From an uncultured Pseudomonadota bacterium (GTDB taxonomy: Bacteria > Pseudomonadota > Gammaproteobacteria > Steroidobacterales > Steroidobacteraceae), in NCBI GenBank assembly GCA_937920275.1, contig CALGVD010000129.1, positions 1 through 33,742 on the forward strand: a stretch of DNA of 33,742 nt. The letters run 5' to 3'. The notes under the pieces are model-generated. The model did no database searches, was not told the origin of the DNA, and saw only the letters and a program-made list of their open reading frames with translations. This document shows, piece after piece, positions 1,490 through 29,523 of this stretch. Positions within the stretch are counted from its first letter, which is position 1, and each line of letters opens with the position of its first letter. Made by a program: the position numbers and the translations under genes.

Positions 1490-2305
1490 TCAGTCCTTGA
1501 GACCCGTACCGCGGTCCATGAGCCTCAGCGCCACGAAGAACAACACGACCGCAGCGAGTGCCATGATGCCGAAGGCCCATCCGACCGCGACATCCGACCG
1601 GTCGAGGAAACCGAAGCGGAACGCGTTCACCATGTGCAGCACCGGGTTGGCGAAGGACAGCGTCCGCGCCCACTCCGGCAGCAGGTTGATGGAGTAGAAG
1701 ACGCCACCGAAATAGGTGAGCGGCGTGAGGATGAAGGTCGGTATCCAGTTGACCTGGTCGAAGTTGCGGGCGAACACCCCGTTGATGAAGCCCGCCAGCG
1801 AGAAGATGATGGCGGTGAGCAGCACCGCCACGATCGTGGCGATCAGGTGGTGGACCGGCAGGTGCGTGAAGAAGAGCGCGACCACGGCGACCGCACCGCC
1901 GACCAGCAACCCACGCAGCACACCGCCGCCCACATACCCGGCCACGATGATCCAGTTGGGCAGCGGAGCGACCATGATCTCCTCGAGGTAGCGGGCGAAC
2001 TTCGCGCTGAACACCGACGAGGAGACATTGGCGTAGGAGTTGGTGATCACCGCCATCATGATGAGACCGGGCGCGATGTACTGCATGTAATCGATGCCGT
2101 CCATCTGACCGATACGGCTGCCGATCAGGCTGCCGAAGATCACGAAGTAGAGCGCCGCGGTGACCGCCGACGGTACGATGGTCTGGCCCCAGATGCGCAG
2201 GATGCGACCCATCTCCCGCAGCACGATGGTCTGGAAGCCGATCCAGCGGATGCGCGCCCTCGACGGAGCGGCGACCTCGACGGCAGCGGACGGGAGCGCG
2301 CTCAC
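1490..2305 (-). CDS. yadH: ABC-2 type transporter permease (YadH-like)
   Basis: A protein of 271 residues with about six hydrophobic membrane segments and the ABC-2 permease layout. After a cytoplasmic N-terminus of about 35 residues come paired helices (about 39-65, 78-95, 118-145, 148-175 and 183-205) and a final helix near 240-262. The conserved loop LEEIMVAPLPNW (about 106-117) is typical of the YadH/NodJ group. It should form the membrane channel of an exporter with the ATPase encoded just upstream, whose stop overlaps this start by 4 nt (2302-2305). That overlap implies translational coupling. E. coli YadH is of similar length (256 aa). The substrate cannot be told from sequence. Confidence 0.92.
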   Translation of the reverse strand: MSALPSAAVEVAAPSRARIRWIGFQTIVLREMGRILRIWGQTIVPSAVTAALYFVIFGSLIGSRIGQMDGIDYMQYIAPGLIMMAVITNSYANVSSSVFSAKFARYLEEIMVAPLPNWIIVAGYVGGGVLRGLLVGGAVAVVALFFTHLPVHHLIATIVAVLLTAIIFSLAGFINGVFARNFDQVNWIPTFILTPLTYFGGVFYSINLLPEWARTLSFANPVLHMVNAFRFGFLDRSDVAVGWAFGIMALAAVVLFFVALRLMDRGTGLKD

Positions 2306-3225
2306 GGTGCGGCACCGGAGCGATCGACCAGTCGCATGAAGATCTCTTCGAGGCGATTGACCTTGTTGCGCATCGAGACCACCTGAACGCCCTCCGCCGA
2401 GAGACTCGCGAACAGCCCGTTCAGGTCCTGGTCTTTGGCGATCTCCACCTCAAGGGTCTGCGGATCGGCGAGCTGGAACTCGTGACCGGCGATCTGCGGT
2501 GCCATGGCGATCGGGGCACGCAAGCTGAGCACCAAGGTCTCGACATGCAGGCGCCGCAGCAGGCTGTCCATGCGATCGGCTTCGGCGATGCGCCCACGGT
2601 CGATGATGGCGATGTTGCGGCAGAGGTTCTCGGCTTCCTCGAGATAGTGCGTCGTGAGGATGATGGTGATGCCCTGCTCGTTGAGTCCGCGCAGGAAATC
2701 CCACATCGAGCGGCGGATCTCGATGTCGACGCCCGCCGTCGGCTCATCGAGGATGAGCAGCTTCGGCTCGTGCACCAGGGCGCGCGCGATCATCAGCCGG
2801 CGCTTCATGCCGCCCGATAGCGTGCGCGTCATGCTGCGCCGCTTGTCCCAGAGGGAGAGTTGCCGGAGATACTTCTCGGCGCGCTCGCGGGCGAGTGCGC
2901 GCGGGATGCCGTAGAAGCCGGCTTGGTTGACCACGATGGTCTCCGGCGTCTCGAACATGTTGAGGTTGAATTCCTGGGGCACGATACCGATGCAGGACTT
3001 GGCGCCCTCGAGATCGGTATCGAGGTCGTGGCCGAAGACCTGCACCGAGCCGGCGGTCTTGGTGACGAGCGAAGTGCAGATGCTGATGAGGGTGCTCTTG
3101 CCGGCGCCATTGGGCCCGAGCAACGCAAAAAAATCCCCTTCAGCCACCTGTAGGTCTATGCCCTGAAGGGCGTGGACTCCGTTGCGATACCGCTTGGAAA
3201 GGCCGTGGACCGAGAGCGCGTGCAT
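2302..3225 (-). CDS. yadG: ABC transporter ATP-binding protein (YadG-like)
   Basis: A 307-residue ABC ATPase. Walker A is GPNGAGKST (37-45), the Q-loop lies in IVPQEFNLN (about 81-89), the signature is LSGGMKRR (136-143), Walker B is LLILDEPTAG (156-165) and the switch His is 193. About 90 residues follow the nucleotide-binding domain, as in E. coli YadG (308 aa). It should power the YadH-like permease at the inner membrane. It is the first gene of the minus-strand cluster ATPase-permease-hydrolase. A hexamer TATCGT lies 8 nt before the ATG and no Shine-Dalgarno site is evident, which fits a transcript starting at or near the start codon. Confidence 0.94.
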   Translation of the reverse strand: MHALSVHGLSKRYRNGVHALQGIDLQVAEGDFFALLGPNGAGKSTLISICTSLVTKTAGSVQVFGHDLDTDLEGAKSCIGIVPQEFNLNMFETPETIVVNQAGFYGIPRALARERAEKYLRQLSLWDKRRSMTRTLSGGMKRRLMIARALVHEPKLLILDEPTAGVDIEIRRSMWDFLRGLNEQGITIILTTHYLEEAENLCRNIAIIDRGRIAEADRMDSLLRRLHVETLVLSLRAPIAMAPQIAGHEFQLADPQTLEVEIAKDQDLNGLFASLSAEGVQVVSMRNKVNRLEEIFMRLVDRSGAAP

Positions 3226-3265: not shown

Positions 3266-3292
3266 CGATCGACGCGATCAACGCGATCGACG
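3266..3292. repeat. Three tandem 9-bp units at the end of the FlhD-like gene
   Basis: CGATCGACG, CGATCAACG and CGATCGACG follow each other without spacing. The middle unit differs by one base, and on the minus strand that base makes the TGA stop of the FlhD-like gene (3278-3280). Confidence 0.8.
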
Positions 3293-3982
3293 CGAGCCGG
3301 TCCGCACCGGCGCCGAAGGCGTACGCGCCACCGCCGCGAGCCGCTGTAGACCATGCAGGGTGTCCTGCCAGAGTGCCTCGGGATCGGTACGCCCAGCGGC
3401 CTGGAGACGCCCCCGCCAGTGCCGCGGTTCATCGCCCCAACGCAACGCAAGCCAATGTCCGGCGATCTCGGTGAGCGCATCGAGGTTCGGCAGCGTGAGG
3501 GTGCGGAATGCGGCACAGCCGGCCGGTGAGATCCCGAGCAGCAGGCTCGCCGCGGTGGGGGCGGTGCGACAAGTCTGCCAACAGAAGTGGCACAACAGTC
3601 TCGCGAATGCCCGACCTGCGGGCCGGGCGCACCATGAGACGACGCGATGCGGGTCATCGCTGACCGCCCAACTCGGCGAACGATGCGCGGTCAGGGCTGC
3701 ATCGATCGAGAGCTCGAACAACAGGAACGGCGCCTCGGCGACGCGCGCGAGCGCGGCCTCATCGAGCGCCAGCCAGTCGCTGCGCAGACCATCGACGGCG
3801 GCGAGACCGGACGAACGGCCATCGGCCAAGGCTTCGCGCAGCACACGCAGACCTCGCAGATTCATCTCAGCGACCAAGCGGAACGCTTCGGTGTCGACGG
3901 CCAAAGGAAAATCTTCGGCGGCCTCGTACGAGGCTCGCGGGACCGCATGCGGCACGGGCGGATTATTGTCGGCTTCCATCAT
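3278..3982 (-). CDS. Two-domain FlhD-like regulator (tandem FlhD)
   Basis: A 234-residue protein, exactly twice 117, the size of one FlhD. From memory of E. coli FlhD, residues about 140-183 align to it without gaps. The shared pattern includes Leu-Gly-Ile (149-151), Leu-Thr-Leu-Pro (162-165), Leu-x-Glu (170, 172) and a closing Arg-aromatic (181-182). The first half (about 36-94) gives a second, weaker match: Met-Asn-Leu (40-42) against FlhD Ile-Asn-Leu, an Ala-rich helix, then AEAPFLLFEL against the end of the FlhD core. I infer a fused FlhD dimer. The gene diverges from an FlhC-like gene, supporting a joint role. It is rich in Cys (118, 131, 134, 138, 156). GGGGAGGA abuts ATG 3982 and gives better spacing to ATG 3979. 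The stop lies in a 9-bp repeat array. The homology was judged by eye only. Confidence 0.62.
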   Translation of the reverse strand: MMEADNNPPVPHAVPRASYEAAEDFPLAVDTEAFRLVAEMNLRGLRVLREALADGRSSGLAAVDGLRSDWLALDEAALARVAEAPFLLFELSIDAALTAHRSPSWAVSDDPHRVVSWCARPAGRAFARLLCHFCWQTCRTAPTAASLLLGISPAGCAAFRTLTLPNLDALTEIAGHWLALRWGDEPRHWRGRLQAAGRTDPEALWQDTLHGLQRLAAVARTPSAPVRTGSRRSR

Positions 3983-4177
3983 TCCTCCCCATTCACGCCA
4001 TTAATGTGTCTCAAAAACGATTGGATTGCAGCCTGATATTTGCGATATTTTCATTGAAACACGCGTCTTCTCCGTCTGCGCACCGGATATCCGGCTTATG
4101 GTCAAAGAAGCGCGTGAGCCTCTTACATCGATGGATCCACCCACCGTCACCCCACCGCATCGCCCAAGGAGTCCCTC
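3983..4177. promoter_or_regulatory. Divergent control region of the FlhD-like and FlhC-like genes
   Basis: This 195-bp intergenic region is clearly richer in A+T than its surroundings near 4005-4060. It holds two GATATTT copies with a 9-bp period (4035-4041 and 4044-4050), a perfect 12-bp palindrome CCGGATATCCGG (4083-4094) and the FlhC-like ribosome site AAGGAG (4166-4171). I could not assign a convincing sigma-70 promoter in either direction. The AAATATCG read on the minus strand (4050-4043) resembles the core of the enterobacterial FlhD4C2 box. Confidence 0.5.
4083..4094. repeat. 12-bp perfect palindrome CCGGATATCCGG
   Basis: An uninterrupted palindrome 83 bp upstream of the FlhC-like start, between two divergent genes. 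It could be an operator; no binding protein is known from the sequence. Confidence 0.4.
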
Positions 4178-4756
4178 ATGCGCGTCACCGACGACCGTTA
4201 CAACCGCGACCGGTTGCGCCTCGAGATCGCCCTGCGTCTCATAGGCCACGAGGCGCGCACACAGACCATCCGTCGTTGGACGGGACTCAGCGACGATCGG
4301 ATACGCAAGCTGGTCCGTTCTTACATCCGCCCCGGCGCGGGAGTCCGACGGCATCGCGGAAAGTCACCGCAACAGGTCGGATTTTTTCTGCGTGGCGGCA
4401 GCGATGACGCCCATGCGCTCGCCGCGATGCTGCTGTTGTTCGGCGTGGTGCCGCCGAGGCCCGCCGCAGCACGGACGCCCGATGGTGCGCCGTCACCGCT
4501 GCCATCGCTCGCGAGGGGGCGGCAGATGTGCGAAGCCTACGAGACCTATCGGCGCGTGGTGCCGCAAGCGCGCATCGATTTCGAGCATGCCGTGTTCCTC
4601 GCCATCGCGCTGAATGCCGCCGATCAGATCCGCCTGCGGTGGTGCCACTCCTGCGATGCCGCGAACATCACCGAGCACAGCGCTCTGCGCGTCCCGCCCT
4701 GCCGAGCCTGCGGCGCAGCGTTGCGGGACACTGTTACAATGGGACCCGATCATTGA
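4178..4756 (+). CDS. FlhC-like zinc-binding transcriptional regulator
   Basis: A 192-residue protein, the same length as E. coli FlhC. Residues about 10-50 match the FlhC N-terminal helices: an amphipathic helix, Ala-Arg-x-Gln, then Thr-Gly-Leu-Ser-x-x-Arg-Ile-x-Lys-Leu against the FlhC helix-turn. The middle region has an FFLRGG strand and a long Ala/Leu helix (78-90), followed by a Tyr-rich segment around 121-124. Near the C-terminus CxxC-x15-CxxC (Cys156, 159, 175, 178) corresponds to the four-Cys zinc site of FlhC, with the shared Asn-x-Ile-Thr between the pairs. FlhC activates transcription with FlhD, and here a tandem FlhD-like protein is encoded divergently. AAGGAG lies 6 nt before the ATG, fixing the start. 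nudC follows 19 nt after the stop. Family membership is likely; the targets are unknown. Confidence 0.72.
   Translation: MRVTDDRYNRDRLRLEIALRLIGHEARTQTIRRWTGLSDDRIRKLVRSYIRPGAGVRRHRGKSPQQVGFFLRGGSDDAHALAAMLLLFGVVPPRPAAARTPDGAPSPLPSLARGRQMCEAYETYRRVVPQARIDFEHAVFLAIALNAADQIRLRWCHSCDAANITEHSALRVPPCRACGAALRDTVTMGPDH
4735..4740 (+). promoter_or_regulatory. Possible -10 hexamer TACAAT upstream of nudC
   Basis: TACAAT within the last codons of the FlhC-like gene, 35 nt before the nudC ATG. There is no clear -35 element, so it is only a candidate internal promoter. Confidence 0.25.
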
Positions 4757-4775: not shown

Positions 4776-5744
4776 ATGCCGACCGCCACCCTCGTCGTCA
4801 GCCACAACTTCCTAGCCGGTCCGTACATCGACCGTCGCTCGGAGTCACGCGAGGAAGCCGACTGGCGTGCGGCAGCGGTGTCGGATCCGGGGACCCTCTT
4901 CCTGCTTGCGCGCGGCACCGCCCACCCCATCGGCGGGGAGCACCCGTCCGTCACCTTCGTGCGGGCGGATGACCCTGCGGTCCGCTCCGCAGCACTCGAG
5001 TCGTGGGTACTGCTCGGCTGGTACCGCGAGGCGCGTTGCGTGCTGGTGCAACTCGGCGAAGATGTGCCGCCGCCGCCCGGTGCGCGCTTCGAGGAATTAC
5101 GGCCCTTGGCGGCCCTGCTCGATGGCGAACAAGCGGGCCTCTTGGCCTACGCGCGGGCGCTCACCTATTGGCAACGGCGGCATCGGCACTGCGGCGTCTG
5201 CGGTGCGCCCTGCGAGCCGCAACGCGCCGGACATGTCATGCGCTGCAGCGACCCGACCTGCGCCACGGAGTCCTTTCCGCGCATCGACCCGGCGGTGATC
5301 GTGCTCGTCTCGGACGGCGAACGCGCGCTGCTCGGTCGTCAGGCGAGCTGGCCCGCCGGGCGTTATTCGACCGTCGCCGGTTTTGTGGAGCCCGGTGAGA
5401 GCCTCGAAGACACGATCGCCCGCGAGGTTCTCGAAGAGACCGGGGTCGTCATCCACGACACCTGCTACCACTCCTCGCAACCCTGGCCTTTTCCGTCGTC
5501 GCTGATGCTGGGCTTCACCGCGAGCGCGTCGCCGGACGCCCGACCGCGGCCGAGCGAAGAGCTCGAGGATGTGCGCTGGTTCAGCCGGGCCGCCATCGCC
5601 GCGGGCGAGATCCTGCTGCCCCCGCCCACCTCCATCTCGCATCGGCTGATCGCCCAATGGTTCGATGCGCAATGGTCCGAACCGCTCGCCGCGATCACAG
5701 CACGCAGCGGCCCTTGGTATGGCCGCGGAGGCGGCCCGCGTTGA
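4776..5744 (+). CDS. nudC: NAD+ diphosphatase NudC
   Basis: A 322-residue Nudix hydrolase that cleaves NAD(H) into AMP and NMN(H) and, in E. coli, removes NAD caps from RNA. A zinc ribbon uses Cys139, Cys142, Cys157 and Cys162. The Nudix box runs from Gly202 to about Val224, with Glu208 and REVLEETG (216-223). The NudC-specific motif SQPWPFPSS lies at 234-242. The N-terminal domain (about 1-130) is longer than in E. coli NudC (257 aa), as in many proteobacterial versions. The start at ATG 4776 was chosen because the protein then begins at a sensible point after the FlhC-like stop; GGGAG is only 2 nt before it, and TTG 4761 is an alternative. The stop overlaps the next start by 4 nt. Confidence 0.95.
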   Translation: MPTATLVVSHNFLAGPYIDRRSESREEADWRAAAVSDPGTLFLLARGTAHPIGGEHPSVTFVRADDPAVRSAALESWVLLGWYREARCVLVQLGEDVPPPPGARFEELRPLAALLDGEQAGLLAYARALTYWQRRHRHCGVCGAPCEPQRAGHVMRCSDPTCATESFPRIDPAVIVLVSDGERALLGRQASWPAGRYSTVAGFVEPGESLEDTIAREVLEETGVVIHDTCYHSSQPWPFPSSLMLGFTASASPDARPRPSEELEDVRWFSRAAIAAGEILLPPPTSISHRLIAQWFDAQWSEPLAAITARSGPWYGRGGGPR

Positions 5745-6343
5745 ACGCCCTCGAAGCACTGTTGCCGATCGCGCTCGGCGTGGCCTTGGCGGCAGCAGTG
5801 GGCCTGCGGGTGTTCCTGCCGCTCTGTGCGCTGTCCTTGGCGGGTTGGATGGGATGGGTCGAGCTGTCCGAGGGCTTCGCCTGGCTCGGCAACTGGCAGG
5901 CCCTGGTGATGCTGTCGGTCGCGGCCGTGGTCGAGATCGCGGCGTATTACCTGCCCGGCATCGACAACGCCTTGGATGCGATCGCGACCCCGGTCGCGAT
6001 CGGCGCCGGCACCCTCGCGACCGCCGCCGTCATCACCGACCTGCCTCCGCTCGTCAAATGGACCACCGCCGTGATCGCGGGCGGCGGCATGGCCGGGCTC
6101 ACCCAGGGCGTCACCTCGCTGCTGCGCCTCAAATCCACCGCCACCACCGGTGGCTTGGCGAACCCGATCCTCGCCACCGGCGAACTCGGCGGCGCAGCAC
6201 TGCTGAGCGCCGCGGCTCTGGCCGCACCGTTGCTGGCACTCGGGCTCGTGATGGCCAGCATCTGGTCGGCGACCCGTTGGCTGCGACGGCGCCTGCGGCG
6301 CCCTGTGGACCACGAGCCGATACCTCCCAGACCATTACAGTAG
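5741..6343 (+). CDS. DUF4126 family membrane protein
   Basis: A 200-residue membrane protein with about five hydrophobic segments (near 7-32, 44-62, 73-93, 98-120 and 145-172) and the DUF4126 opening motif Gly-Leu-Arg-Val-Phe-Leu-Pro-Leu. Its function is unknown. I place the start at TTG 5741, which overlaps the nudC stop by 4 nt (TTGA) and has GGAGG 9 nt upstream (5727-5731). ATG 5657 or 5672 would add a basic N-terminal extension overlapping nudC and seems less likely. The C-terminus is Arg-rich, so it is probably cytoplasmic. The spacing suggests cotranscription and translational coupling with nudC. Confidence 0.8.
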   Translation: MNALEALLPIALGVALAAAVGLRVFLPLCALSLAGWMGWVELSEGFAWLGNWQALVMLSVAAVVEIAAYYLPGIDNALDAIATPVAIGAGTLATAAVITDLPPLVKWTTAVIAGGGMAGLTQGVTSLLRLKSTATTGGLANPILATGELGGAALLSAAALAAPLLALGLVMASIWSATRWLRRRLRRPVDHEPIPPRPLQ

Positions 6344-6346
6344 AAT
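6341..6346 (+). promoter_or_regulatory. -10-like hexamer TAGAAT overlapping the DUF4126 stop codon
   Basis: The first three bases are the TAG stop of the DUF4126 gene. A promoter here would start tamA transcription about 32 nt before its ATG. No good -35 match was found. Confidence 0.35.
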
Positions 6347-6384
6347 CGGGACATCGCTACGGCCTAAAGGCTGCCCCGCCCCTG

Positions 6385-8199
6385 ATGTCCCGAGCCGCCT
6401 CGACCCTCCCCGTGCTGCTCGCCCTCGTCGCCCTGCTTTCGCCGGCGGCGCGGGCGGACATCGACATCCAAGTGAGCGGTGTCGACGAGGACATCCGGCG
6501 CAATGTGCTCGTGTTCCTCAGCCTTGAGCGCTACAAGACGCGCGACGATCTCGACGAAGCGCTGATCGGTCGACTCGGTGAGCGCGCTGAGCGCGAGGCG
6601 GCCTCGGCGCTGCGACCGTTCGGCTACTACACCCCACAAGTCAGCGCGGAAGTCGTCCGCACCGCACCGGGAGAATGGCGGGCGCGCATCGCCATCGAGC
6701 CGGGCGAGCCGGTGCTCCTCGAAGAGGTCCGGGTCGAGGTCAGCGGCGCAGGGCTCGAGCATCCCGCGTTCCGGACGCTGCTCGAGGAGCTGCCGCTGCG
6801 TCGCGGCGAGCGTCTCAACCATGCGGCCTACGATGGGCTGAAAGGCGAGCTGCGGCGTCTGGCGGCCACCCTCGGCTACGCCGAGGCGCGCCTGTCGGCC
6901 AACGAGATGCTGGTGGACCTCGAGAGCCGCACTGCACGCATCCATCTCGCGATGGAGACCGGACCTCGGTACTCGTTCGGTCCCACCACCATCACGCAAC
7001 GCTCGCTCGACGAGGATCTGCTGCGTCGTTACCTGCGCTTCCGCGAGTCCGCGCCCTACGATGCCACCGAACTGCTGCGCACGCAGTTCGCGCTCGATGA
7101 CAGCCAGTATTTTTCGACGGTAGAGGTGATCGCGGGTGAACCCGACCGTTCGACCCTGCTGATCCCGGTGTCCGTGCTCGCCGAGCCGAACCGTCGCAAC
7201 CGCTATTCGGTCGGTGTCGGATACGCGACCGACAGCAAGGCGCGCGGCACGCTCAGCTGGGAGAACCGACGCTTCAACGACCGCGGTCACCGGATGCGCG
7301 CCGAGCTCAAGGCTGCGCAGATCGAGCAGTCCTTCGAGGCACGCTATGTGATCCCCATCGGCGATCCGGCGCTCGAAAAGCTGTCCTTCGAGACCCGCTG
7401 GGCGCGCGACGACCGCGGCGATCTCGAGACGCGCACGCTGCGGTTCCAGCCGTCCGTCACGCATGTGCTCGGCGACTGGCAACGCGTGCTGTCCGCGTCG
7501 CTCTCGAACATCGAGACGATCACGGCGGCCACCCCCACGCAACCCTCCTCGCGGGACTCCAGCCTGCTCGTCATCCCGGCCATCAGCTACTCCTCTGTAC
7601 CGCGCGGTTACCTCGGCGAAGCGCTGTTCTCACGGACCTTCAACGCCGAGCTGCGGGGCTCCGCCGAAGCGCTCGGTGCGCCCACCGAGTTCCTGCAGTT
7701 GAAGGTCGAGGCGGAGAAGGTCTTCAATCTCGCGCCGAAGTGGAACACCTACCTGCGCGGCCAACTCGGCACCACCTGGGTGACCGAGACCGCCCTGCTC
7801 CCCGGTACCGAGCGTTTCTTCGCCGGCGGTGATCGCAGCGTGCGCGGTTTCGGCTACAACGACCTCTCCCCGCTCGATGCAGGCGGCGCAAAGATCGGCG
7901 GTCGCCACCTCTTCACCGGTTCCGCGGAGCTGATCCGCGACCTGCCGCGAAACCTCGCCCTTGCCGTGTTCGTGGATGTCGGCAATGCCTTCGACGATTT
8001 CGGCGATCCGCTCCAGTACTCGGCAGGGATCGGCCTGCGGTTCAGGCTGCCCGTGGTGAGCGTCGGCATCGACCTCGCGCAACCCCTGACCAACCCACGC
8101 TGCCGCAGCGCGACACCCGATCCACGCTGCCGGACAGAGCCAGGCTTCGACGCTCTGGACGGACCACGATTGCACCTCAATTTCTCACCCAAGCTATGA
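6385..8199 (+). CDS. tamA: Translocation and assembly module outer-membrane protein TamA
   Basis: A 604-residue Omp85-family protein. The N-terminus is a Sec signal peptide with cleavage likely after Ala-Arg-Ala (about residue 24). POTRA-type domains fill about 25-270, with a DUF-like first POTRA followed by two more. The beta-barrel domain (about 280-604) contains the Omp85 lid-loop motif Val-Arg-Gly-Phe within GGDRSVRGFGYNDLSP, and the chain ends in a strand with a terminal Leu. TamA works with TamB, encoded directly downstream with a 4-nt overlap, in outer-membrane protein assembly and possibly phospholipid transport. ATG 6385 was chosen because it starts directly at the signal peptide. 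A weak AAAGG lies 14 nt upstream. The upstream open frame reaches back into nudC but is not needed. Confidence 0.95.
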   Translation: MSRAASTLPVLLALVALLSPAARADIDIQVSGVDEDIRRNVLVFLSLERYKTRDDLDEALIGRLGERAEREAASALRPFGYYTPQVSAEVVRTAPGEWRARIAIEPGEPVLLEEVRVEVSGAGLEHPAFRTLLEELPLRRGERLNHAAYDGLKGELRRLAATLGYAEARLSANEMLVDLESRTARIHLAMETGPRYSFGPTTITQRSLDEDLLRRYLRFRESAPYDATELLRTQFALDDSQYFSTVEVIAGEPDRSTLLIPVSVLAEPNRRNRYSVGVGYATDSKARGTLSWENRRFNDRGHRMRAELKAAQIEQSFEARYVIPIGDPALEKLSFETRWARDDRGDLETRTLRFQPSVTHVLGDWQRVLSASLSNIETITAATPTQPSSRDSSLLVIPAISYSSVPRGYLGEALFSRTFNAELRGSAEALGAPTEFLQLKVEAEKVFNLAPKWNTYLRGQLGTTWVTETALLPGTERFFAGGDRSVRGFGYNDLSPLDAGGAKIGGRHLFTGSAELIRDLPRNLALAVFVDVGNAFDDFGDPLQYSAGIGLRFRLPVVSVGIDLAQPLTNPRCRSATPDPRCRTEPGFDALDGPRLHLNFSPKL

Positions 8200-11100
8200 C
8201 CATGAAAGTCCGCTGGCTGTTGCTGCCGATCGTGCTGCTGACGCTGACAGCGCTCGCCGCCCTCGCGGCGTTGGCCACCGTGATGCACTCGGAATCCGCG
8301 CTGCAGTTCATCGTGCGGCAGCTGCCCGAGCGCTTCGGCAGCATCGAGCGCTTGGTGGTGAAGGATGTCAGCGGCACGCTCGCCAAGGGCGTGCGCATCG
8401 GCAGTCTGGAAGTCGAGCACGACCTCGTGGGCATCCAGGTCACCGGGTTGGCGTTCCGCGTCGCGCCGCTGCCGCTCGTCTGGCAATCCATCGAGGTGCG
8501 CGGTTTCGACCTCCAGGAACTGCGCATCGAGCAACGGGTGCGCGACCGGCCGCCGCCCGACCGTACACCGCGGTTCCTGCCCGGCCTGCTCTCGATCTGG
8601 ACCGAGGACGCACGCATACACCGCACCGTCATCCAACCGGTCGAAGGCAAACCAGTCGAGCTGCGCGATGCGATCTTGAGCGGCACGCTCTACGGCAAAG
8701 TGGCGCGGATCCGGCGCGCGGAGCTCGCCCTCGCAGACCTGCAGGTGACCGCCCAAGGTCTGCTCACCGCAGACGATCCGCTCGATCTCGAGGGCTCAGC
8801 CACTGCGACGTTCACACCTGCCCAAGGGCCACGCTGGGTGATCGTCGCCAGCATCGACGGTGACCTCGCGGGCGCTGCCGTGACCGGCGGCATACGCGAG
8901 CCGTTCCGGGCGGAGTTGGACGATGCGCAGTTCCGCGCACTCGCACCCTGGGGCCTCACCGGCGAGGCGACGATCAGCGACCTCGATCTCGCCGAGTTCG
9001 GCGGTGGCTCAGCGCTCGGCATCCTCTCGGGCAGGCTGACGCTGCGGCTCGACCGGGACGCCTACCTTGCCCAAGGTAGACTCGACGCTGCAGGTCTCGG
9101 CATCGGCCCGGTCGATGTCGACATCGATGCGATGTACGCCGAACGCCAGGTCGCACTGCGCCGCGCCGACCTGCAACACCCCGCCTCCGGGATGCGTGCG
9201 AGCACGGCCGGCACCGTGACCCTCGCCGAGGGCGACACCCTCGTCGATCTGAAAGGGCGTTGGCAGGGCTTCCGTTGGCCCCTCACGGGACAGGCGGTAC
9301 CGATCGTCAAAAGTCCTGCCGGAGAATTCACGCTGGCGGGCGGAGGTCCTTGGTCGGTCACGAGCAGCGGTCGATTCGAGGTACCCGACCTGCCGCCGAT
9401 CGACGAGACGCTCGCCGGTACGCTCTATCCGGACAGGTTCGTCATCACGCGCAGCGAGATCCGTACGATGGACGCGCGGGCTGCGCTGGTCGGAGAGGTC
9501 AGTTGGCAGCCGCGCGAAGCGTGGCGGCTGAAGGGGCCGGTTCGGGGCCTCAACCTCGGCAAACTGCGCCCCGATCTGCCGGGGTCGCTCGATTTCACCG
9601 TCGACGCGCGCGGCACCGGTTTCGGTGCGACCCAGATCATCGATGTCGATGTCACCGCTCTTTCCGGCCGACTGCGCGGCACCGCAGCGAGGGGGAGCGG
9701 CAGTGTCCGCTACGCGCGGGACACGCTCACTTTCCGCAAGGTCGATGTCGCTGCAGGCGGCTTCCGCCTCGCGCTCGACGGCGAACTTTCCCCGCGCAGG
9801 CGCGATCTGCGGTTCCAGGTCGTGGCCAGCGACCTCGGCGTGCTCGCTGCCGGCGCGCGTGGCAGTCTGCGTGCCGAGGGCACGCTGCGGGGCACGCCCG
9901 CCGCCATGTCGGTACGCGCGGAAGCAACTGGTCGAAACCTCGACTATCAGGGGATCCGCGCCGTGACGCTCGACGCGGACATCGATGTCGATCCGAGCGG
10001 CGATCGCAACCGGCCGGCGCGCGCCAGCATCGTGGCCCGCGACATCGAGGCCTACGGGCAGACATTCAAAACACTGCGCTTCAACCTGAACGGACCGGTC
10101 GGCAACCATTCGCTCGCGCTCGATCTCGATGGGGAGAGTCTCGCGCTCGAAGCGCGCGGCACCGGTCGCATCGAAGGCGATCGTTGGCGGCAATCTTGGG
10201 ACGGCGCCGATGTCGATCTGCCGGCTGACATCACCTTGACCCTCAGTTCACCGCTGGCGTTGTCGTTGTCCCCGGGTCGCATCGAGGCGGAACCTTTCTG
10301 TATGCGCAGCCGCGACAGCCCACGCTGGGGCCAGGCCGTGACGCTATGCGCCGAAGGCGGTCTCGATCCCGCCGGCTGGCGCGCCAAAGGGAAGATCGAT
10401 GGACTGCCTCTGGCGAGCCTGCTCGACGCGCCTTCGCCGAAGGCCAGTTATACGGGTCGCATGGACGCCACGGTCGATCTGCGCGGCAGCGGCGAGGGTC
10501 CGCCGCTCGGTACGCTGCGCGTGACGCTCGAAGACGCTGCGTTGCGGTGGCAACGCGCGGGAGCGAAAGAGGACCTGATGGTGCTCGGAACCGGTCTGCT
10601 CACCGCTGAATCCACCGCAGCCGGCGTGGAAGGCGCGCTGCAGCTCGCAGCCGGCGAGCGCGGTAGCGTCGTGGGCACGCTGCAGACGACCCATGTCGCC
10701 GGGGACTGGCGTGCGATGCCGCTGCGCGCGACGCTCAAGGCCGACTCCACCGCGCTCGTACTGCTGCACCTGTATGTGCCCGAGATCGATCGCGCAGCAG
10801 GCGATCTGTCCTTAGACCTCGTCATCGGCGGCACCCTCGGTGCGCCGCTCGTCAACGGCGTCGCGCGGCTTGCGCGCGGCGAGCTCGACTTCTATCAGGT
10901 CAACCTCGCGCTGCGCGACCTCACCGCCGAAGCCCGCCTCATCGACAACGGCTTCGTGTTGAGATCCTCGGGCCGCGCGGGTGAAGGTCGTATCGCGGCC
11001 GACGCGGAGCTCGTCTGGCGCGATCGCGAACCGTACGGCGAGCTCAGCATCAAGGGCGATGACCTGTTGGTGGCGGATGTCCCGGAAGCGCGCATCACGG

Positions 11101-11963
11101 CCTCGCCCGACCTGCGGTTCCGGGTCGCGGGCCGCGACCTCTCGGCCACCGGCGTGGTCCGCATCCCCTACGCGCGCCTCGTGCCCGCCGATCTGACGGG
11201 TGCCGTTCTGTCCTCAGCAGATGAAGTGCTGGTCGGCGCGGAGCCTGTCGATCCCGAAAGCAGCTTCCGTGTCTCGAGCAACATCCGCTTGGTCCTCGGT
11301 GACAAGGTCACCCTCGACTCGTTCGGCTTGAGCGGACGGCTTGCGGGCACGCTCAATGTCATCACCCAGCCCGACGGCAACAGCCGCGGCTCAGGGGAGC
11401 TCGGCGTCGTCGAAGGCAAGTATGCGGCGCTCGGCCGCCGTCTCGACATCGAGCGCGGTCGGCTGGTCTTCACCGGCGGCGCACTCAACGACCCGGGCGT
11501 CGACATCCGTGCGACCAAAGAATTCCCGGATGTGAAGGCCGGCGTGAACGTCCGCGGTACGCTGCGCGCACCACGCATGACCTTCTTCGCCGAACCGTCG
11601 CTGCCGCAGTCACAGATCGTCTCGCTGTTGTTGGCGGGTGGCACGTTCGACAGTGCGCAAGGCGATGCGGCGAGCGCCGGCCGCAGCGCCCTGATCGCGC
11701 AGGGCGGCGCGATCCTCGCCCAGCAGCTCGGCCAACGGATCGGCATCGAGGATGTCGGCATCGAGCAGAACCTCGCCAACGAGGCCTCGCTGGTGCTCGG
11801 CAAGTATCTCTCGCCGAGGCTCTATGTCAGCTACGGCATCTCGCTCGCCGAGGCGATCAACACCTTCAAGATGCGCTACACCATCAACGACCGCTGGACC
11901 ATCAAGACCGAAGCCGGCAAGGAAGTCAGCGCGGACATCGTCTACACGGTCGAAAAGGACTGA
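8196..11963 (+). CDS. tamB: Translocation and assembly module inner-membrane protein TamB
   Basis: A 1255-residue member of the TamB/AsmA-like bridge-protein family. An N-terminal membrane anchor (about 6-30, rich in Leu and Ala) is followed by a very long run of short beta-strands, expected to form a periplasmic beta-taco groove. The conserved TamB (DUF490) domain occupies roughly the last 350 residues, including the GVDIRATKEF-PDVKAGVNVRG-like region and the final segment ending SADIVYTVEKD. E. coli TamB is 1259 residues. It starts at ATG 8196 within the tamA stop region (4-nt overlap), so the two are coupled. It should span from inner to outer membrane and contact TamA. No frameshift or truncation is seen. 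Confidence 0.95.
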   Translation: MTMKVRWLLLPIVLLTLTALAALAALATVMHSESALQFIVRQLPERFGSIERLVVKDVSGTLAKGVRIGSLEVEHDLVGIQVTGLAFRVAPLPLVWQSIEVRGFDLQELRIEQRVRDRPPPDRTPRFLPGLLSIWTEDARIHRTVIQPVEGKPVELRDAILSGTLYGKVARIRRAELALADLQVTAQGLLTADDPLDLEGSATATFTPAQGPRWVIVASIDGDLAGAAVTGGIREPFRAELDDAQFRALAPWGLTGEATISDLDLAEFGGGSALGILSGRLTLRLDRDAYLAQGRLDAAGLGIGPVDVDIDAMYAERQVALRRADLQHPASGMRASTAGTVTLAEGDTLVDLKGRWQGFRWPLTGQAVPIVKSPAGEFTLAGGGPWSVTSSGRFEVPDLPPIDETLAGTLYPDRFVITRSEIRTMDARAALVGEVSWQPREAWRLKGPVRGLNLGKLRPDLPGSLDFTVDARGTGFGATQIIDVDVTALSGRLRGTAARGSGSVRYARDTLTFRKVDVAAGGFRLALDGELSPRRRDLRFQVVASDLGVLAAGARGSLRAEGTLRGTPAAMSVRAEATGRNLDYQGIRAVTLDADIDVDPSGDRNRPARASIVARDIEAYGQTFKTLRFNLNGPVGNHSLALDLDGESLALEARGTGRIEGDRWRQSWDGADVDLPADITLTLSSPLALSLSPGRIEAEPFCMRSRDSPRWGQAVTLCAEGGLDPAGWRAKGKIDGLPLASLLDAPSPKASYTGRMDATVDLRGSGEGPPLGTLRVTLEDAALRWQRAGAKEDLMVLGTGLLTAESTAAGVEGALQLAAGERGSVVGTLQTTHVAGDWRAMPLRATLKADSTALVLLHLYVPEIDRAAGDLSLDLVIGGTLGAPLVNGVARLARGELDFYQVNLALRDLTAEARLIDNGFVLRSSGRAGEGRIAADAELVWRDREPYGELSIKGDDLLVADVPEARITASPDLRFRVAGRDLSATGVVRIPYARLVPADLTGAVLSSADEVLVGAEPVDPESSFRVSSNIRLVLGDKVTLDSFGLSGRLAGTLNVITQPDGNSRGSGELGVVEGKYAALGRRLDIERGRLVFTGGALNDPGVDIRATKEFPDVKAGVNVRGTLRAPRMTFFAEPSLPQSQIVSLLLAGGTFDSAQGDAASAGRSALIAQGGAILAQQLGQRIGIEDVGIEQNLANEASLVLGKYLSPRLYVSYGISLAEAINTFKMRYTINDRWTIKTEAGKEVSADIVYTVEKD

Positions 11964-12721: not shown

Positions 12722-13236
12722 TCGGGCCCGTGCGCATCCTCTTGGTCTACGGCGGTCAGCCGAACGGCCGCACCGAACAGCTTCGCCGCGAGGTCGTCGC
12801 GGGCATCGCGAAGGCTGCGCGAGCGGACGACGAGGGCGCAGCCGACGCGCCAGGCACGGTGCCAGGCACGGTGTATGAACTGCGTGAACGGCACGCGCTC
12901 CTCGCGACGGCCGATGACCTGTTGTGGGCGCAAGGCTTGCTGCTCGGGACGCCCGAGCACTTCGGCTACATGTCGGGCGCCCTCAAAGATTTCTTCGACC
13001 GCAGCTTCTATCCGGCTGAAGCGCGCACGGCCGGACTGCCGTACGGGCTGTTCGTCAGCGCAGGCAACGACGGGCGCGGCACGATCACGGCCGTGGAGCG
13101 GATCGTCGCGGGCTATGGTTGGCGGGCGATCGCGGATCCGGTGCGGGTCGTGGGCGACCCGGACGAGGCCGCGCTGGCGAGTTGCCGGGAACTCGGCGGG
13201 ACGCTCATCGCCGGCCTTGCAGCCGGGATCTTCTAG
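12718..13236 (+). CDS. Flavodoxin-fold NAD(P)H-dependent oxidoreductase
   Basis: A 172-residue flavodoxin-fold protein. It opens with a beta-strand and phosphate-loop region (RILLVYGGQPNGRTEQL, about 6-22) and contains the FMN-pocket motif GTPEHFGYMSGALKDFFDR (77-95), typical of small FMN-binding reductases. A further loop, FVSAGNDGRGT, follows. It should be a cytosolic FMN reductase or quinone/flavin oxidoreductase. ATG 12718 overlaps the yjdF-like stop by 4 nt, so translation is probably coupled. Residues 45-52 are a doubled Pro-Gly-Thr-Val caused by a 12-bp tandem duplication. The stop shares the palindrome CTAG with the stop of the converging gene on the other strand. The precise substrate is unknown. 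Confidence 0.82.
   Translation: MIGPVRILLVYGGQPNGRTEQLRREVVAGIAKAARADDEGAADAPGTVPGTVYELRERHALLATADDLLWAQGLLLGTPEHFGYMSGALKDFFDRSFYPAEARTAGLPYGLFVSAGNDGRGTITAVERIVAGYGWRAIADPVRVVGDPDEAALASCRELGGTLIAGLAAGIF
12849..12872 (+). repeat. 12-bp in-frame tandem duplication
   Basis: GCCAGGCACGGT occurs twice back to back inside the flavodoxin-fold gene and encodes a doubled Pro-Gly-Thr-Val in a surface-loop-like, low-complexity stretch. Confidence 0.85.
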
Positions 13237-13994
13237 CGACCCAAAGCGCGCTGCGCGGCCACATACCCCGGGGCCAATCGCAGCGAGCGCTCGAAGGACC
13301 TCTGGGCGGCGGCGGCGTCTCCGGCTTCGCGGGCGCAGCGGCCGACCCAGAAGTGGGCTTCCGCGGCGCCCCACTCGATCCCGCCGGCACCCCCCGCCCC
13401 GCCCGGCCCCGCGGCGTCGAAAGCGCCGGCGGCAGCCCGGAAGCGCGCACAAGCTTTGCCCTTGTCCCCCCCGACGAAGGCGGGGCGGAAATAGAGCCCG
13501 AAACCATCGACCAATTGCACCCGCGGATGACCGGGCTCGAGCGCAAGTGCCGCCTCGATCGCCTTACCGCTCCGTGACCCGTTGCGGATCGCACCGAGGC
13601 CACCGAGGTTGGCGAGATAGCCGTAACAGGCTGACTGGAGGGCGAACGCCTCGGCGAACTTCGGGTCGGCTTTCACCGCTGCCTCGGTCGCCGCGATACA
13701 CGCCGCACCGGTGCGCTCGGCGTCCTTGTCACGCTTGGCGCCGATCGCGCGCTGCAGCACCCGGAACTGCACGAAGGCTTGGGTATAGCGGTCCTGCGCC
13801 TTGGACGACGTTGCCAGGCCGGTCGCAGAGGCCGCGACGCGTGCGAGGGCTGCGTCGTCGCCGGCGAACCACGCGGTCTGCGCCTGCGCGGCGATCGCGC
13901 CGCGATCGGCCGCTTGGACGCTCGCCTGAGCGGCCGCGGGCAGCGCCACGGCCGCAAGCAGGCTCAAGCCGATCCACGGGACGATGGCCATCAT
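13233..13994 (-). CDS. Secreted tetratricopeptide-like repeat protein
   Basis: A 253-residue protein with an N-terminal signal peptide (hydrophobic 3-22, cleavage likely near Ala-Ala-Ala/Gln). The rest is Ala-rich helical repeats. The last repeat (about 215-250) has the TPR pattern with Trp/Gly/Ala, Ala-x-x-Ser-Phe-Glu-Arg-Ser-Leu-Arg-Leu-Ala-Pro-Gly-Tyr, and an earlier one covers KAIEAALALEPGHPRVQ. It is likely a periplasmic scaffold protein of unknown partner. A Gly/Ala-rich spacer (GPGGAGGAGG) lies near residue 197. It begins 27 nt after the stop of the lipoprotein methyltransferase, so the two probably form an operon. Its TAG stop overlaps the convergent flavodoxin-fold gene by 3-4 bp. 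AGGTGA precedes ATG 13994 by about 11 nt; ATG 13991 is also possible. Confidence 0.75.
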   Translation of the reverse strand: MMAIVPWIGLSLLAAVALPAAAQASVQAADRGAIAAQAQTAWFAGDDAALARVAASATGLATSSKAQDRYTQAFVQFRVLQRAIGAKRDKDAERTGAACIAATEAAVKADPKFAEAFALQSACYGYLANLGGLGAIRNGSRSGKAIEAALALEPGHPRVQLVDGFGLYFRPAFVGGDKGKACARFRAAAGAFDAAGPGGAGGAGGIEWGAAEAHFWVGRCAREAGDAAAAQRSFERSLRLAPGYVAAQRALGR

Positions 13995-14021
13995 GACGGA
14001 CGGGTCACCTGACAGTCCGCC

Positions 14022-14870
14022 TCACTTCGTGAAGCGCAGCGTCATGCGGTCCGACTCGCCGATCGCGTCGTACTTGCTGCGGTCGAAAGTCGGATCGGCG
14101 GGCTTGCCGGAACCGTAAGCCACCGTCGCCCGCGTGGGCGGCAGCGTCCAGACGCCGAACGGATGGTCTGCGGTGTCCTTCGGGTTGGCGTTGATGTCGG
14201 ACCGGGCGACGAGCTTGAGACCGGCGCGCTTCGCGGCATCGATCACGAACTGCTCGGTGACATAGCCCGAGGCGCCCTTGTCTTCGGGCGTGCCGGGCTT
14301 CGCGCGGTGCTGCTCCACGGCCAACGAGCCGCCCGGCTTGAGGGCGCGCGCGACCTGTGCGAAGTAACGATCGACCATCCCCTCCTGACGCATCCAGCCG
14401 TGGATGACGCGCGAGAGCAGGATGAAGTCGTGCTGGGACTCGGCGAGCGGGGGCGCCACCGGCCCCCAGTTCACGAGCTCGACCTTGCCAAAGACCGACG
14501 CGTCGGCGTAACGCGCGGCAAAGGCGTCGCGGCCCTGACGGGCGGCAGGCGTGAGGTTCGGATTGGTGAGGTCGGCCGCGGTCGCGGTGTAACGACCGCC
14601 GGTACGCGCCGCGTAAGGCGCCAGGATCTGTGTCCACCAGCCACCGCCCGGCTGGACCTCGAGGATGGAGGCGCCAGGCTTCAGGCCCCAGAACGCCAAG
14701 GACGGACCAGGTCGCCGCTCGGCATCGCGCTCTTTCTGCTCAGCGCTGCGCGAGCTGCTCGCGAGTACGGAATCGATCGCGGCACGGGACGGCTCAGGCT
14801 CACCCGTGGTCGCACACCCGGTCAGGAAAAAGGACAACGCGACGAGCGCCAAGGGACGGATTGCGGACAT
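14022..14870 (-). CDS. Lipoprotein with class I SAM-methyltransferase fold
   Basis: A 282-residue protein. A hydrophobic N-terminus ends in the lipobox Leu-Thr-Gly-Cys (16-19), so Cys19 should be lipidated and the protein exported. The mature part resembles predicted methyltransferases of the COG4798 group. Motif I is Ile-Leu-Glu-Val-Gln-Pro-Gly-Gly-Gly-Trp-Trp (69-79) instead of the usual GxGxG loop. Later core strands are visible: a DFILLSRVIHGW strand and helix, LKPGGSLAVEQHR, and GYVTEQFVIDAAKRAGLKLVAR. Start ATG 14870 is fixed by AAGGAG 6 nt upstream (14882-14877). It lies 27 nt upstream of the secreted repeat protein. Whether it still binds SAM outside the cytoplasm is unclear. Confidence 0.82.
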   Translation of the reverse strand: MSAIRPLALVALSFFLTGCATTGEPEPSRAAIDSVLASSSRSAEQKERDAERRPGPSLAFWGLKPGASILEVQPGGGWWTQILAPYAARTGGRYTATAADLTNPNLTPAARQGRDAFAARYADASVFGKVELVNWGPVAPPLAESQHDFILLSRVIHGWMRQEGMVDRYFAQVARALKPGGSLAVEQHRAKPGTPEDKGASGYVTEQFVIDAAKRAGLKLVARSDINANPKDTADHPFGVWTLPPTRATVAYGSGKPADPTFDRSKYDAIGESDRMTLRFTK

Positions 14871-14998
14871 GGGTGACTCCTTCGATGGGACACGAGATTC
14901 GGTTGCACAGAGGCTAGCAGAAGCGCACCGATCCGTGCAGCCGTTCGCTGCGGGGTCGCCAGGCGTTGCGAAGGACCACGCTGCTCCGTAAGGCCGGT

Positions 14999-15004
14999 TA
15001 TCGT
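14999..15004 (+). promoter_or_regulatory. -10-like hexamer TATCGT before the GNAT gene
   Basis: TATCGT ends 8 nt before ATG 15013, the same hexamer and spacing as for the yadG-like gene. No convincing -35 element is seen. The 142-bp gap 14871-15012 must hold promoters for both divergent genes. Confidence 0.35.
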
Positions 15005-15012
15005 ATGAGCCC

Positions 15013-15639
15013 ATGACTGTGCCTGCCCCATTCCACGGCGCCCCTCCTGACCCGATCGGTGAGGGCGATGCGGCGGCTCGGCCGCTCACGCTGCGCCCTG
15101 CACGCCGCGACGAAGCCAAAGCGTTGTCGGTCTTGGTCAATTCGGCCTATCGCGGCGATCCGAGCCGCGTCGGTTGGACGACCGAAGCGGATCTGCTCGG
15201 CGGCCAGCGGACCGACCCTGCGGCGCTTCGGGAATTCATGGCCGCCGGCGAGACCGCCCTCGACCGGGTGCTGCTGGTGTACGAGGGCACGGCAGGCGGG
15301 ACCGGCCTCGACAGACTGCCGGAAGCCTGCGTACAACTTGAACGGCGCGGCGACGACGCCTACCTCGGCATGCTCACGGTACAGCCGGTCCGGCAGGCCA
15401 GCGGCCTCGGAAAACGCTTGCTGGACGCTGCGGAGGGCTGGGCTGCGGCACGCTGGGGAACCCGCACGATCATCATGACCGTGATCACGCAGCGACCGGA
15501 ACTGATCGCCTGGTACGAACGGCGTGGTTACAACGCCACGGGGGAGACCGCGCCCTTCCCCTACGGCGATACCCGATTCGGCGAGCCGAAGCGGCCGGAC
15601 CTGCAGTTCATCGTGCTGCGCAAGCCGCTCGGCGGCTGA
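15013..15639 (+). CDS. GNAT family N-acetyltransferase
   Basis: A 208-residue protein with the GCN5-related acetyltransferase fold. After an N-terminal extension of about 24 residues, strand beta-1 (LTLRPARRDEAKAL) opens the domain. The acetyl-CoA motif A is LTVQPVRQASGLGKRLLDAAE (121-141), with the Gln128-x-x-Gly-x-Gly pyrophosphate loop. The C-terminal ELIAWYERRGYNATGET is the typical motif B ending in a Gly-Tyr. It should be cytosolic; the acceptor is unknown. The gene is the first of a plus-strand pair with the glycerophosphodiesterase (35-nt gap) and diverges from the lipoprotein methyltransferase. ATG 15013 has no clear Shine-Dalgarno site. Confidence 0.88.
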   Translation: MTVPAPFHGAPPDPIGEGDAAARPLTLRPARRDEAKALSVLVNSAYRGDPSRVGWTTEADLLGGQRTDPAALREFMAAGETALDRVLLVYEGTAGGTGLDRLPEACVQLERRGDDAYLGMLTVQPVRQASGLGKRLLDAAEGWAAARWGTRTIIMTVITQRPELIAWYERRGYNATGETAPFPYGDTRFGEPKRPDLQFIVLRKPLGG

Positions 15640-27542: not shown

Positions 27543-28400
27543 ATGTCGGTCCGCAGCGCCAGCGGCGTCATGGCGATGTTCATCGCCGTCGCCGCCTTCT
27601 CGTTCATGGATGCGCTGCTGAAGACTTTCGCAGCGCATTATCCCCCTGCGCAAGTGACCTTTCTTCGAGCGGTCTCTTCGCTGCCTTTCGTGTTGCTGCC
27701 GTTGTGGTGGTCAGGCCGCTTGGGCGAACTGCGCCCGGTCCGACCGGCACTGCACCTGGTCCGCGCACTGCTCGGCATCCTCATGTTGCTGAGCTTCATC
27801 GCAGCGCTGCGCGACGCACCGCTCGCAGCCGTCTATTCGGTCTACATGGGTGCACCCCTCTTGATCGCAGCGTTCGCGGCGTGGTTCTTGGGCGAGCGGG
27901 TCGGCCTCGGCTGTTGGCTTGCGATCTTGGTCGGGCTCGCCGGCGTGCTCGTGATCCTGCAGCCCCGCCCCGACGGGATGTCCCCCACCGCCGGCCTTGC
28001 CGCGCTGCTCTCCGCCCTCTGTTACGCCGGTGCGGTCTTGGTCGCGCGGGTGCTGACCCGCACCGATACGACCGCCTCGGTGGTCTTCATGTTCCTCGCT
28101 TGGGTGGCGGTGATCTCGCTGGCGCTCGCCCTGCCCGGCTGGGCCCCGATCCTCACCGCCCACTGGCCCTTGATCGTAGCGACCGGTGCGCTCGGCGCCG
28201 TCGGACAGCACTACATCACCGTCGCCTTCAAGCACGCGCCGGCGGCGATCGTCGCGCCGGTCGAGTACACAGCCCTGATCTGGGGGCTCGGCATCGATTG
28301 GGTGGTCTGGTCGGTCGCACCTGATTCCACGATGCTGACGGGCGCAGTGCTCGTGATCCTCGCCGGCCTCTATGTCGTCGCGTGGCGCGAACGCGCATGA
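27543..28400 (+). CDS. EamA/DMT family transporter (first of a pair)
   Basis: A 285-residue membrane protein of the drug/metabolite transporter superfamily, with ten predicted helices in two EamA repeats (about 6-135 and 148-282). Markers of the first repeat are the opening helix with FSFMDALLKTFAAHYP, TFLRAVSSLPFVLLPLW and YMGAPLLIAAFAAWFLGERV (shown in part), with the usual Gly-Glu-Arg after helix 4. In the second half APVEYTALIWG replaces the common E-P-V-like segment. It should export or import small metabolites by an unknown coupling. ATG 27543 is preceded by TATAGT at 7 nt; ATG 27570 is an alternative. The stop overlaps the next start by 4 nt. Confidence 0.88.
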   Translation: MSVRSASGVMAMFIAVAAFSFMDALLKTFAAHYPPAQVTFLRAVSSLPFVLLPLWWSGRLGELRPVRPALHLVRALLGILMLLSFIAALRDAPLAAVYSVYMGAPLLIAAFAAWFLGERVGLGCWLAILVGLAGVLVILQPRPDGMSPTAGLAALLSALCYAGAVLVARVLTRTDTTASVVFMFLAWVAVISLALALPGWAPILTAHWPLIVATGALGAVGQHYITVAFKHAPAAIVAPVEYTALIWGLGIDWVVWSVAPDSTMLTGAVLVILAGLYVVAWRERA

Positions 28401-29302: not shown

Positions 29303-29523
29303 CGCCTTCGCATCGCCAACAGTCCGCCAGAATCAGCGACTTGCACACATAGCCGGAGAATCGGCGTCATCTTCCGGTCATAAAGTACCCCGAGAGGAAC
29401 CCTTGAACTTATCAAGTCACTGTTTTAATTGAGTATTCTTATCTACTGGTCAATCGTTGACCAAGCCAACGAGAATCTGCTGAAAATGCCTCTTTTTCCC
29501 ACTTGACCGATACGCTGTCCACA
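29303..29523. promoter_or_regulatory. A+T-rich region upstream of priA
   Basis: This 221-bp gap holds no gene that I can support. Bases 29400-29500 are markedly A+T-rich for this genome. It contains the dyads CTTGA-N5-TCAAG (29402-29416) and GGTCAA-TCG-TTGACC (29448-29462), with another TTGACC at 29503-29508. I could not settle on one promoter. Confidence 0.5.
29448..29462. repeat. Inverted repeat GGTCAA-TCG-TTGACC
   Basis: Perfect 6-bp arms with a 3-bp centre, 76 bp upstream of the proposed priA ATG. It has the size of a dimeric-repressor operator; the regulator is unknown. Confidence 0.45.

Follow-up and report, generated by a model that had tools for sequence, protein, structure and literature searches.

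A divergent gene pair encoding tandem FlhD-like and FlhC-like proteins, probably subunits of a non-flagellar regulator

We analyzed a stretch of 33,742 nucleotides (nt) from an uncultured Pseudomonadota bacterium (contig CALGVD010000129.1 of assembly GCA_937920275.1), the whole of which is called the window here. In it, two genes that we refer to as D and C lie back to back with 195 nt separating them. D encodes a protein of 234 amino acids (aa) that appears to carry two FlhD domains, and C encodes a 192-aa FlhC-like protein. The features of the pair are as follows:

3278..3982, minus strand: D gene, tandem FlhD-like protein of 234 aa (from the open reading frame, ORF, and family profiles)
3665..3901, minus strand: N-terminal FlhD-like half, residues ~28-106, with Asn N41 kept (from hhalign)
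3383..3607, minus strand: C-terminal FlhD-like half, residues ~126-200, with the LG core kept (from hhalign)
4178..4756, plus strand: C gene, FlhC-like protein of 192 aa (from the A1 profile, described below, and Pfam FlhC)
4643..4711, plus strand: four-Cys zinc site C156/C159/C175/C178 in the FlhC-like protein (invariant in 93/93 homologues)

A first-pass annotation, made from the letters alone, had pointed to these divergent ORFs, and both are found where it placed them, with the lengths and strands that it gave. Two motifs that it read by eye also hold up: the LGI-x10-LTLP spacing in the second half of the D protein is identical in Escherichia coli K-12 FlhD, and the CxxC-x15-CxxC zinc site of the C protein consists of the four invariant cysteines listed above. 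The gene-pair observation is confirmed and exceeds chance. Among fetched loci that contain both genes, 96/98 are divergent (the two exceptions, L121 and L070, have them on one strand) and the median gap between D and C is 107.5 nt; six fetched loci held one gene of the pair within the stretch. For the family profiles, 103 trimmed FlhC-like sequences were reduced to 93 (alignment A1) and 103 FlhD-like sequences to 94 (alignment A2), omitting fragments, frame-broken pieces, and some near-copies.

Single-sequence searches of Pfam, NCBIfam, and PDB are too weak for these proteins, so the family profiles decide. Taken alone, the window's 192-aa protein falls under the curated FlhC cut-offs (Pfam, E = 0.21; NCBIfam, E = 0.07), and neither database shows an FlhD match for the 234-aa protein. 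The A1 profile places FlhC at the top of the PDB sequences (8j56_C, E = 7.6e-14; 2avu_E, E = 8.7e-13) in an alignment that spans profile positions 6-186 of 189, with the next PDB match at E = 0.16. At the level of individual members, Pfam FlhC (PF05280) is found at E <= 1 in 83 of the 93 A1 sequences (best 6e-11) and NCBIfam FlhC at E <= 0.001 in 55 (best 1.1e-9). The invariant A1 columns are R27 and the four zinc cysteines, and no others. Judged by its family profile, the C gene product is homologous to FlhC and retains the complete zinc site, and the earlier identification of the partner as FlhC stands.

The A2 profile has three matches in PDB up to E = 10, all of them FlhD: the N half matches 8j56_A (1.1e-8) and 5hxg_B (1.5e-4), and the C half matches 1g8e_A (9.8e-5). 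Each half was also compared by hhalign with a reference set of 21 single-domain FlhDs (E. coli K-12, a SetD-like protein, one from a Methylomonas plasmid, and 18 from a class-wide scan). The N half matches the full set with a probability of 96.1% (E = 3.5e-9), with similar values for the seven classical (94.6%) and the 14 non-classical FlhDs (94.9%). For the C half, the corresponding values are 95.1% for the full set and 97.3% (E = 2.2e-11) for the non-classical FlhDs. Column shuffles of the two halves of the window-family D protein (40 per half, 80 total) reached maxima of 0.3% and 0.4% against FlhD, and a control comparison of the FlhC-like family with FlhD gave 2.6%. Single A2 members match Pfam FlhD (PF05247) at E <= 1 in 29/94 cases (best 1.4e-7) and NCBIfam FlhD at E <= 0.01 in 9/94, and FlhDs encoded beside flhC-like genes outside the window's order match one of the two halves of the A2 family profile. 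As had been proposed from the letters, both halves are thus FlhD-like, each matching FlhD separately (95%-97%). On the strength of these sequence profiles, the D protein consists of two FlhD domains joined in a single chain. The domain is common to D and the FlhD family (PF05247), the usual member of which is a single domain of ~100-120 aa, whereas D has 234 aa with two. The Asn present in 18/21 FlhDs corresponds to N41 of the N half (94/94), and the Gly of the LGI core (18/21 FlhDs) to G150 of the C half (88/94). These different signature residues may reflect specialization of the halves. With its naturally occurring, covalently joined FlhD pair, tandem D would offer a way to examine the role of each protomer.

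Matches at E <= 1, weak ones counted, occur in 86/100 genomes of the window's family for the D protein and in 96/100 for the C protein. Across the order, which is probably Steroidobacterales, an FlhC-like gene is found at E <= 1e-20 in 117/147 genomes, including 102 of the 113 good ones. When 369 genomes of the class were scanned, 19 matches were obtained at E <= 1e-5: five from the window's order, scoring 197-234 bits, and 14 others, scoring no more than 50.3 bits; the scan scored only eight candidates where the first look gave more, so its misses are not proof of absence. No FlhD match passes the Pfam cut-off in the 100 family genomes (E. coli passed, and two unrelated controls matched below the cut-off). 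One close relative of the window locus is in the metagenome-assembled genome UBA964 (L002). It shares this name with a freshwater genus that the accessible text of two papers places in the Steroidobacteraceae, Steroidobacterales (PMC10976687; PMC12697132), where the window probably belongs as well. It should be noted that another record, L001, is titled Klebsiella pneumoniae isolate AE-03may19-112 and appears mislabelled, given a 94% match to the window proteins.

FlhDC of E. coli is an FlhD4C2 complex and the flagellar master activator, and a comparable role for the window pair would be in keeping with its homology to FlhD and FlhC and with the presence of FlgI, the sole flagellar marker tested, in 58/100 family genomes, including the window's own (G000:C38). 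We consider such a role highly improbable. Among the 70 good family genomes, the FlhC-like gene is retained in 22/22 that are FlgI-negative (weakest E 4.4e-15) versus 45/48 that are FlgI-positive (weak or absent in G014, G019, and G096), so it is not a dedicated flagellar switch. An FlhD-like match (E <= 1) is present in 20 of the 22 FlgI-negative genomes, with none in G058 or in G008, where the pair is close to a contig end. In addition, no flagellar gene was identified among the neighbours of the pair, either in the window or in a comparison of 21 loci (described below). In nine relatives (G011, G013, G020, G024, G044, G046, G083, G094, and G097), a FleQ-domain match lies ~10-16 kb from FlgI on the same contig, which suggests that another flagellar regulator is encoded there; the domain model (PF06490) also matches many ~210-codon response-regulator-like frames and FlgI-negative genomes, and it has no match in the window's genome. 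A flagellar role as the main function was rejected based on the 22/22 count. The first-pass statement that no flagellar gene is in view is right for the surroundings of the pair, and FlgI is present elsewhere in the window's genome. Its term "rewired" is fair for the same two reasons, namely the lack of an identified flagellar neighbour and the retention of the FlhC-like gene without FlgI.

Two candidate regulatory features lie between the genes:

4039..4059, no strand: operator-like site, a degenerate form of the lineage dyad TTTGGGATATTT-N3-CCAAA, unique in the window's genome (G000) at <=3 mismatches
4021..4049, plus strand: possible C-gene promoter TTGGAT-N17-GATATT, overlapping the operator-like site (from a pattern in relatives)

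The common form of the intergenic dyad is TTTGG[G/T]-N8-[C/A]CCAAA or a related one. The window's version is common to L001 and L002, and its left half is canonical in L003, L006, L008, L009, and L010. One of three dyad patterns occurs in 55/81 core intergenic regions, whereas 20 shuffles averaged 1.2 such regions, with 4 at most. The count of 55 is partly circular because the patterns were defined on the same regions, near-copies included. The 81 core regions omit 15 of 96 (14 from loci L064-L080, plus L014), whereas near-copies stay; three g16 genomes had no copies other than the omitted L073-L075 among those found. Genome-wide scans are more telling about location. At <=2 mismatches, TTTGGGATATTTNNNCCAAA has 14 matches in 13/16 genomes, all between D and C (one of them at a secondary pair), with two matches for a reversed-pattern control. 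At <=3 mismatches, TTTTGGTGNATTTATACCAAA has nine matches in 8/10 genomes, seven of them between D and C, with none for the control. The two matches outside the pair are at G072:C11:920 and G041:C18:212685. The position of the dyad between the genes, and its near uniqueness in each tested genome, suggest that the pair may be autoregulated.

It could be that the dyad serves autoregulation alone and that the pair is a global regulator, with a regulon reached through degenerate chromosome-wide sites that pattern searches missed. A regulator so widely conserved in its order is more typically global than purely local, and the match in G072 (C11:920-940) is a near-perfect dyad away from the pair. 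Set against this is the outcome of both scans together: across 26 genomes, with two to three mismatches allowed, 21/23 matches are located between D and C. We regard the global alternative as unlikely, although it is the strongest of the alternatives to a mainly local regulator. As an observation in its own right, the G072 site (L259) is of the second type and lies between two unclassified minus-strand ORFs, and may be an extra target.

The pattern TTGxxx-N17-GATATT can be read as a C promoter overlapping the dyad in 14/81 core regions, the window and close relatives among them; a strict consensus promoter scan did not call TTGGAT-N17-GATATT. AcaCD of IncA/C plasmids (PMC4207636) and SetCD of SXT/R391 elements (PMC4542580) are presented, in the accessible text of those papers, as FlhCD-like conjugation activators, and FlhCD, SetCD, and AcaCD are described there as acting in the -35 region (PMC4542580). 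A dyad over a possible -10 box contrasts with that position and is where a repressor might be expected, so the site could belong to an unrelated repressor while the D/C complex acts elsewhere. We think this rather improbable, given that the dyad stays with D and C beside secretion genes in two cases (L076 in G079 and L067 in G086), although it could also have been inherited there with the intergenic region. At four other loci (L114, L117, L119, and L123), CCATATATGG and GGTCC...GGACC-type dyads replace the common type, perhaps representing another operator class.

The genes flanking the pair in the window are as follows:

2302..3225, minus strand: ATP-binding cassette (ABC) transporter ATPase, downstream of D (Pfam ABC_tran)
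1490..2305, minus strand: ABC-2 type permease, downstream of the ATPase (Pfam ABC2_membrane)
4776..5744, plus strand: nudC-like NADH pyrophosphatase, 19-nt gap after C (Pfam NUDIX, NUDIX-like, and Zn_ribbon_NUD)
5665..8199, plus strand: tamA-like outer-membrane protein, start uncertain (from a neighbour search)
8196..11963, plus strand: tamB-like protein (from a neighbour search)

The C-nudC-tamA-tamB and D-ABC-ABC arrangements are operon-like in the window. We compared neighbours at 21 loci, made up of 20 fetched stretches (11-18 kb) and 16 kb of the window. In all 21, nudC follows C on the same strand, with its start within 200 nt in 16. The ABC ATPase has a tblastn match in 15 loci (directly after D in 12) and the permease in 13, and both tamA and tamB are matched in 16.

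Putting these results together, we think it probable that the two proteins are subunits of a non-flagellar FlhDC-type transcription regulator that is autoregulated through the dyad and has a mainly local output. One tandem D chain would take the place of an FlhD dimer, giving a D2C2 complex with the geometry of FlhD4C2, and the fusion would fix the stoichiometry. The complex would bind the dyad, which overlaps a possible C-gene -10 box, and in this way control both divergent promoters. Its output would fall mainly on the two operon-like units, the D-ABC exporter and C-nudC(-tamAB), since a nearly unique dyad is most simply explained by local control of neighbour units.

Several results weigh against this proposal. 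The C half reaches only 77.2% against the seven classical FlhDs (hhalign), and the two halves of D are weakly alike (12.5%), so the claim of a tandem protein rests on the match of each half to FlhD. AlphaFold models made from four-sequence alignments have mean predicted local distance difference test (pLDDT) scores of 53 and 47, and a Foldseek search with the low-confidence D model (pLDDT 53) gave 196 matches at E <= 10, with none at E <= 0.001 and no FlhD among the best 50. The window's dyad is degenerate, its genome lacks the canonical form at <=2 mismatches, and the tested dyad patterns were not found in 26/81 core intergenic regions. The generic inverted-repeat score is barely above that of shuffles (6.8 vs. 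6.4); it separates poorly, and motif-specific counts were used for this reason. The dyad could also have another factor as its binder. Because nudC and the tam genes are housekeeping neighbours, synteny may be inertia rather than a sign of shared control. Finally, 30/147 genomes of the order have no FlhC-like match at E <= 1e-20; the 20 of these that were listed include every listed f193 genome (nine, of 1.1-1.6 Mb) and every listed f194 genome (three).

Some genomes carry secondary copies of the pair. In at least seven of 14 secondary-copy loci (L231, L233, L237, L238, L239, L241, and L243), a VirB4 homologue (Pfam CagE_TrbE_VirB) lies within 3 kb of the pair; the Pfam check covered 20 selected proteins, drawn from 12 of these loci and some others, mostly one or two per locus, and each of the other seven loci was covered by just one or two proteins. 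At L243, D is followed in turn by virB2/trbC, virB3, virB4, virB5-type, and virB6/trbL. Like AcaCD and SetCD, such copies probably regulate transfer. Secondary pairs L234 and L235 (genome G011) are near TonB-dependent receptors.

The association with secretion genes raises the possibility that the chromosomal pair came from a mobile element, as a conjugation activator similar to AcaCD and SetCD, and was domesticated in the order's ancestor. A tandem FlhD form is suggested for the protein at the AcaD position of plasmid pRA1, and less clearly for Hydrogenophaga and Polaromonas plasmid proteins (see below), which would fit such an origin. The FlhC-family tree (87 chosen rows, quick method) points the other way, from host to element: L014 and 12/16 secondary rows group in a 99* branch that lies within the chromosomal copies, which suggests that secondary copies derive from the host copy, and AcaC joins SetC on an open branch away from the window clade. 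The argument is limited in that L076 and three g16 copies fall outside this branch, and deep joins are unsafe, given long branches with poor support at that depth. We consider domestication distinctly unlikely.

Two secretion-associated pairs share the operator type of their host's main pair, in G079 (L076 and L017; TTTGGG...CCCAAA) and G086 (L067 and L030; TTTGTG...TGTCAAA), whereas the others looked at do not keep it. A more ambitious view, which we hold only tentatively and regard as doubtful, is that tandem FlhD with FlhC is a core non-flagellar regulator of most of the order, and that conjugative elements repeatedly took copies to run transfer, some keeping the host operator. If this is true, host and element regulators could cross-talk. 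FlhDC is a textbook regulator tied to flagella, and its fused relative appears core to most of this order regardless of FlgI. The ancestral role of this fused complex and its link to conjugation activators thereby become testable.

How the window pair compares with known relatives depends on the feature considered. It shares with FlhDC an FlhC homologue with a zinc site and the FlhD domain in both D halves; it differs in its fused FlhD pair, its divergent genes (flhDC is co-oriented in E. coli), and its occurrence without FlgI. AcaCD is similar in being heteromeric, FlhCD-like, and not flagellar, with an apparent tandem FlhD partner. In pRA1, the gene before the FlhC-like one (L193:45679-46287) encodes a 202-aa protein annotated as hypothetical, the halves of which match FlhD at 90.4% and 92.6% (13.0% and 34.2% vs. 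classical FlhDs alone; hhalign). From its position and size, we infer that it is AcaD, given as 22.8 kDa; no statement of a tandem nature appears in the accessible text of two papers (PMC4207636; PMC4542580). The same halves test thus suggests that AcaD, the controller of IncA/C resistance plasmid transfer, is also a tandem FlhD, so the fusion in the window pair is not unique. The differences are that the AcaCD genes are co-oriented and on plasmids, and that AcaC lies elsewhere in the FlhC tree. SetCD is likewise FlhCD-like and not flagellar; in pR997, which we take to be an R391-type element, the genes are co-oriented and the 99-aa partner is a single FlhD. Unlike conjugation activators of this kind, which are expected beside conjugation genes, the window pair has an ABC exporter on one side and nudC/tamAB on the other.

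The Hydrogenophaga and Polaromonas plasmid pairs have a 185-211-aa partner of the FlhC-like gene, with halves that match FlhD moderately (60%-83% vs. all or non-classical FlhDs and <=1.5% vs. classical ones). They differ from the window pair in being co-oriented, in having a relaxase-type gene (mobH or TraI-domain) after the FlhC-like gene, and in their very long branch in the FlhC tree. The window proteins have no tblastn match in the plasmid collection. In the titles and abstract openings searched, with most subscription papers outside that scope, there is no description of a fused, tandem, or divergent FlhD/FlhC. The first-pass annotation knew of no description of the arrangement. The tandem FlhD itself apparently has relatives such as AcaD; the features that set the pair apart are its divergent genes, its chromosomal conservation throughout most of the order, and its retention irrespective of FlgI, none of which was found in the literature searched. 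A Pseudomonas frederiksbergensis plasmid (L190:2001-2477) encodes, ahead of an FlhC-like gene, a hypothetical protein of 158 aa that may be another extended form of FlhD.

Elsewhere in the window, three long ORFs are without a Pfam match at E <= 1e-5 (12875-13996, plus strand; 14022-15140, minus strand; and 28372-29352, plus strand), and a TonB-dependent receptor is encoded at 16924-19386 on the minus strand.

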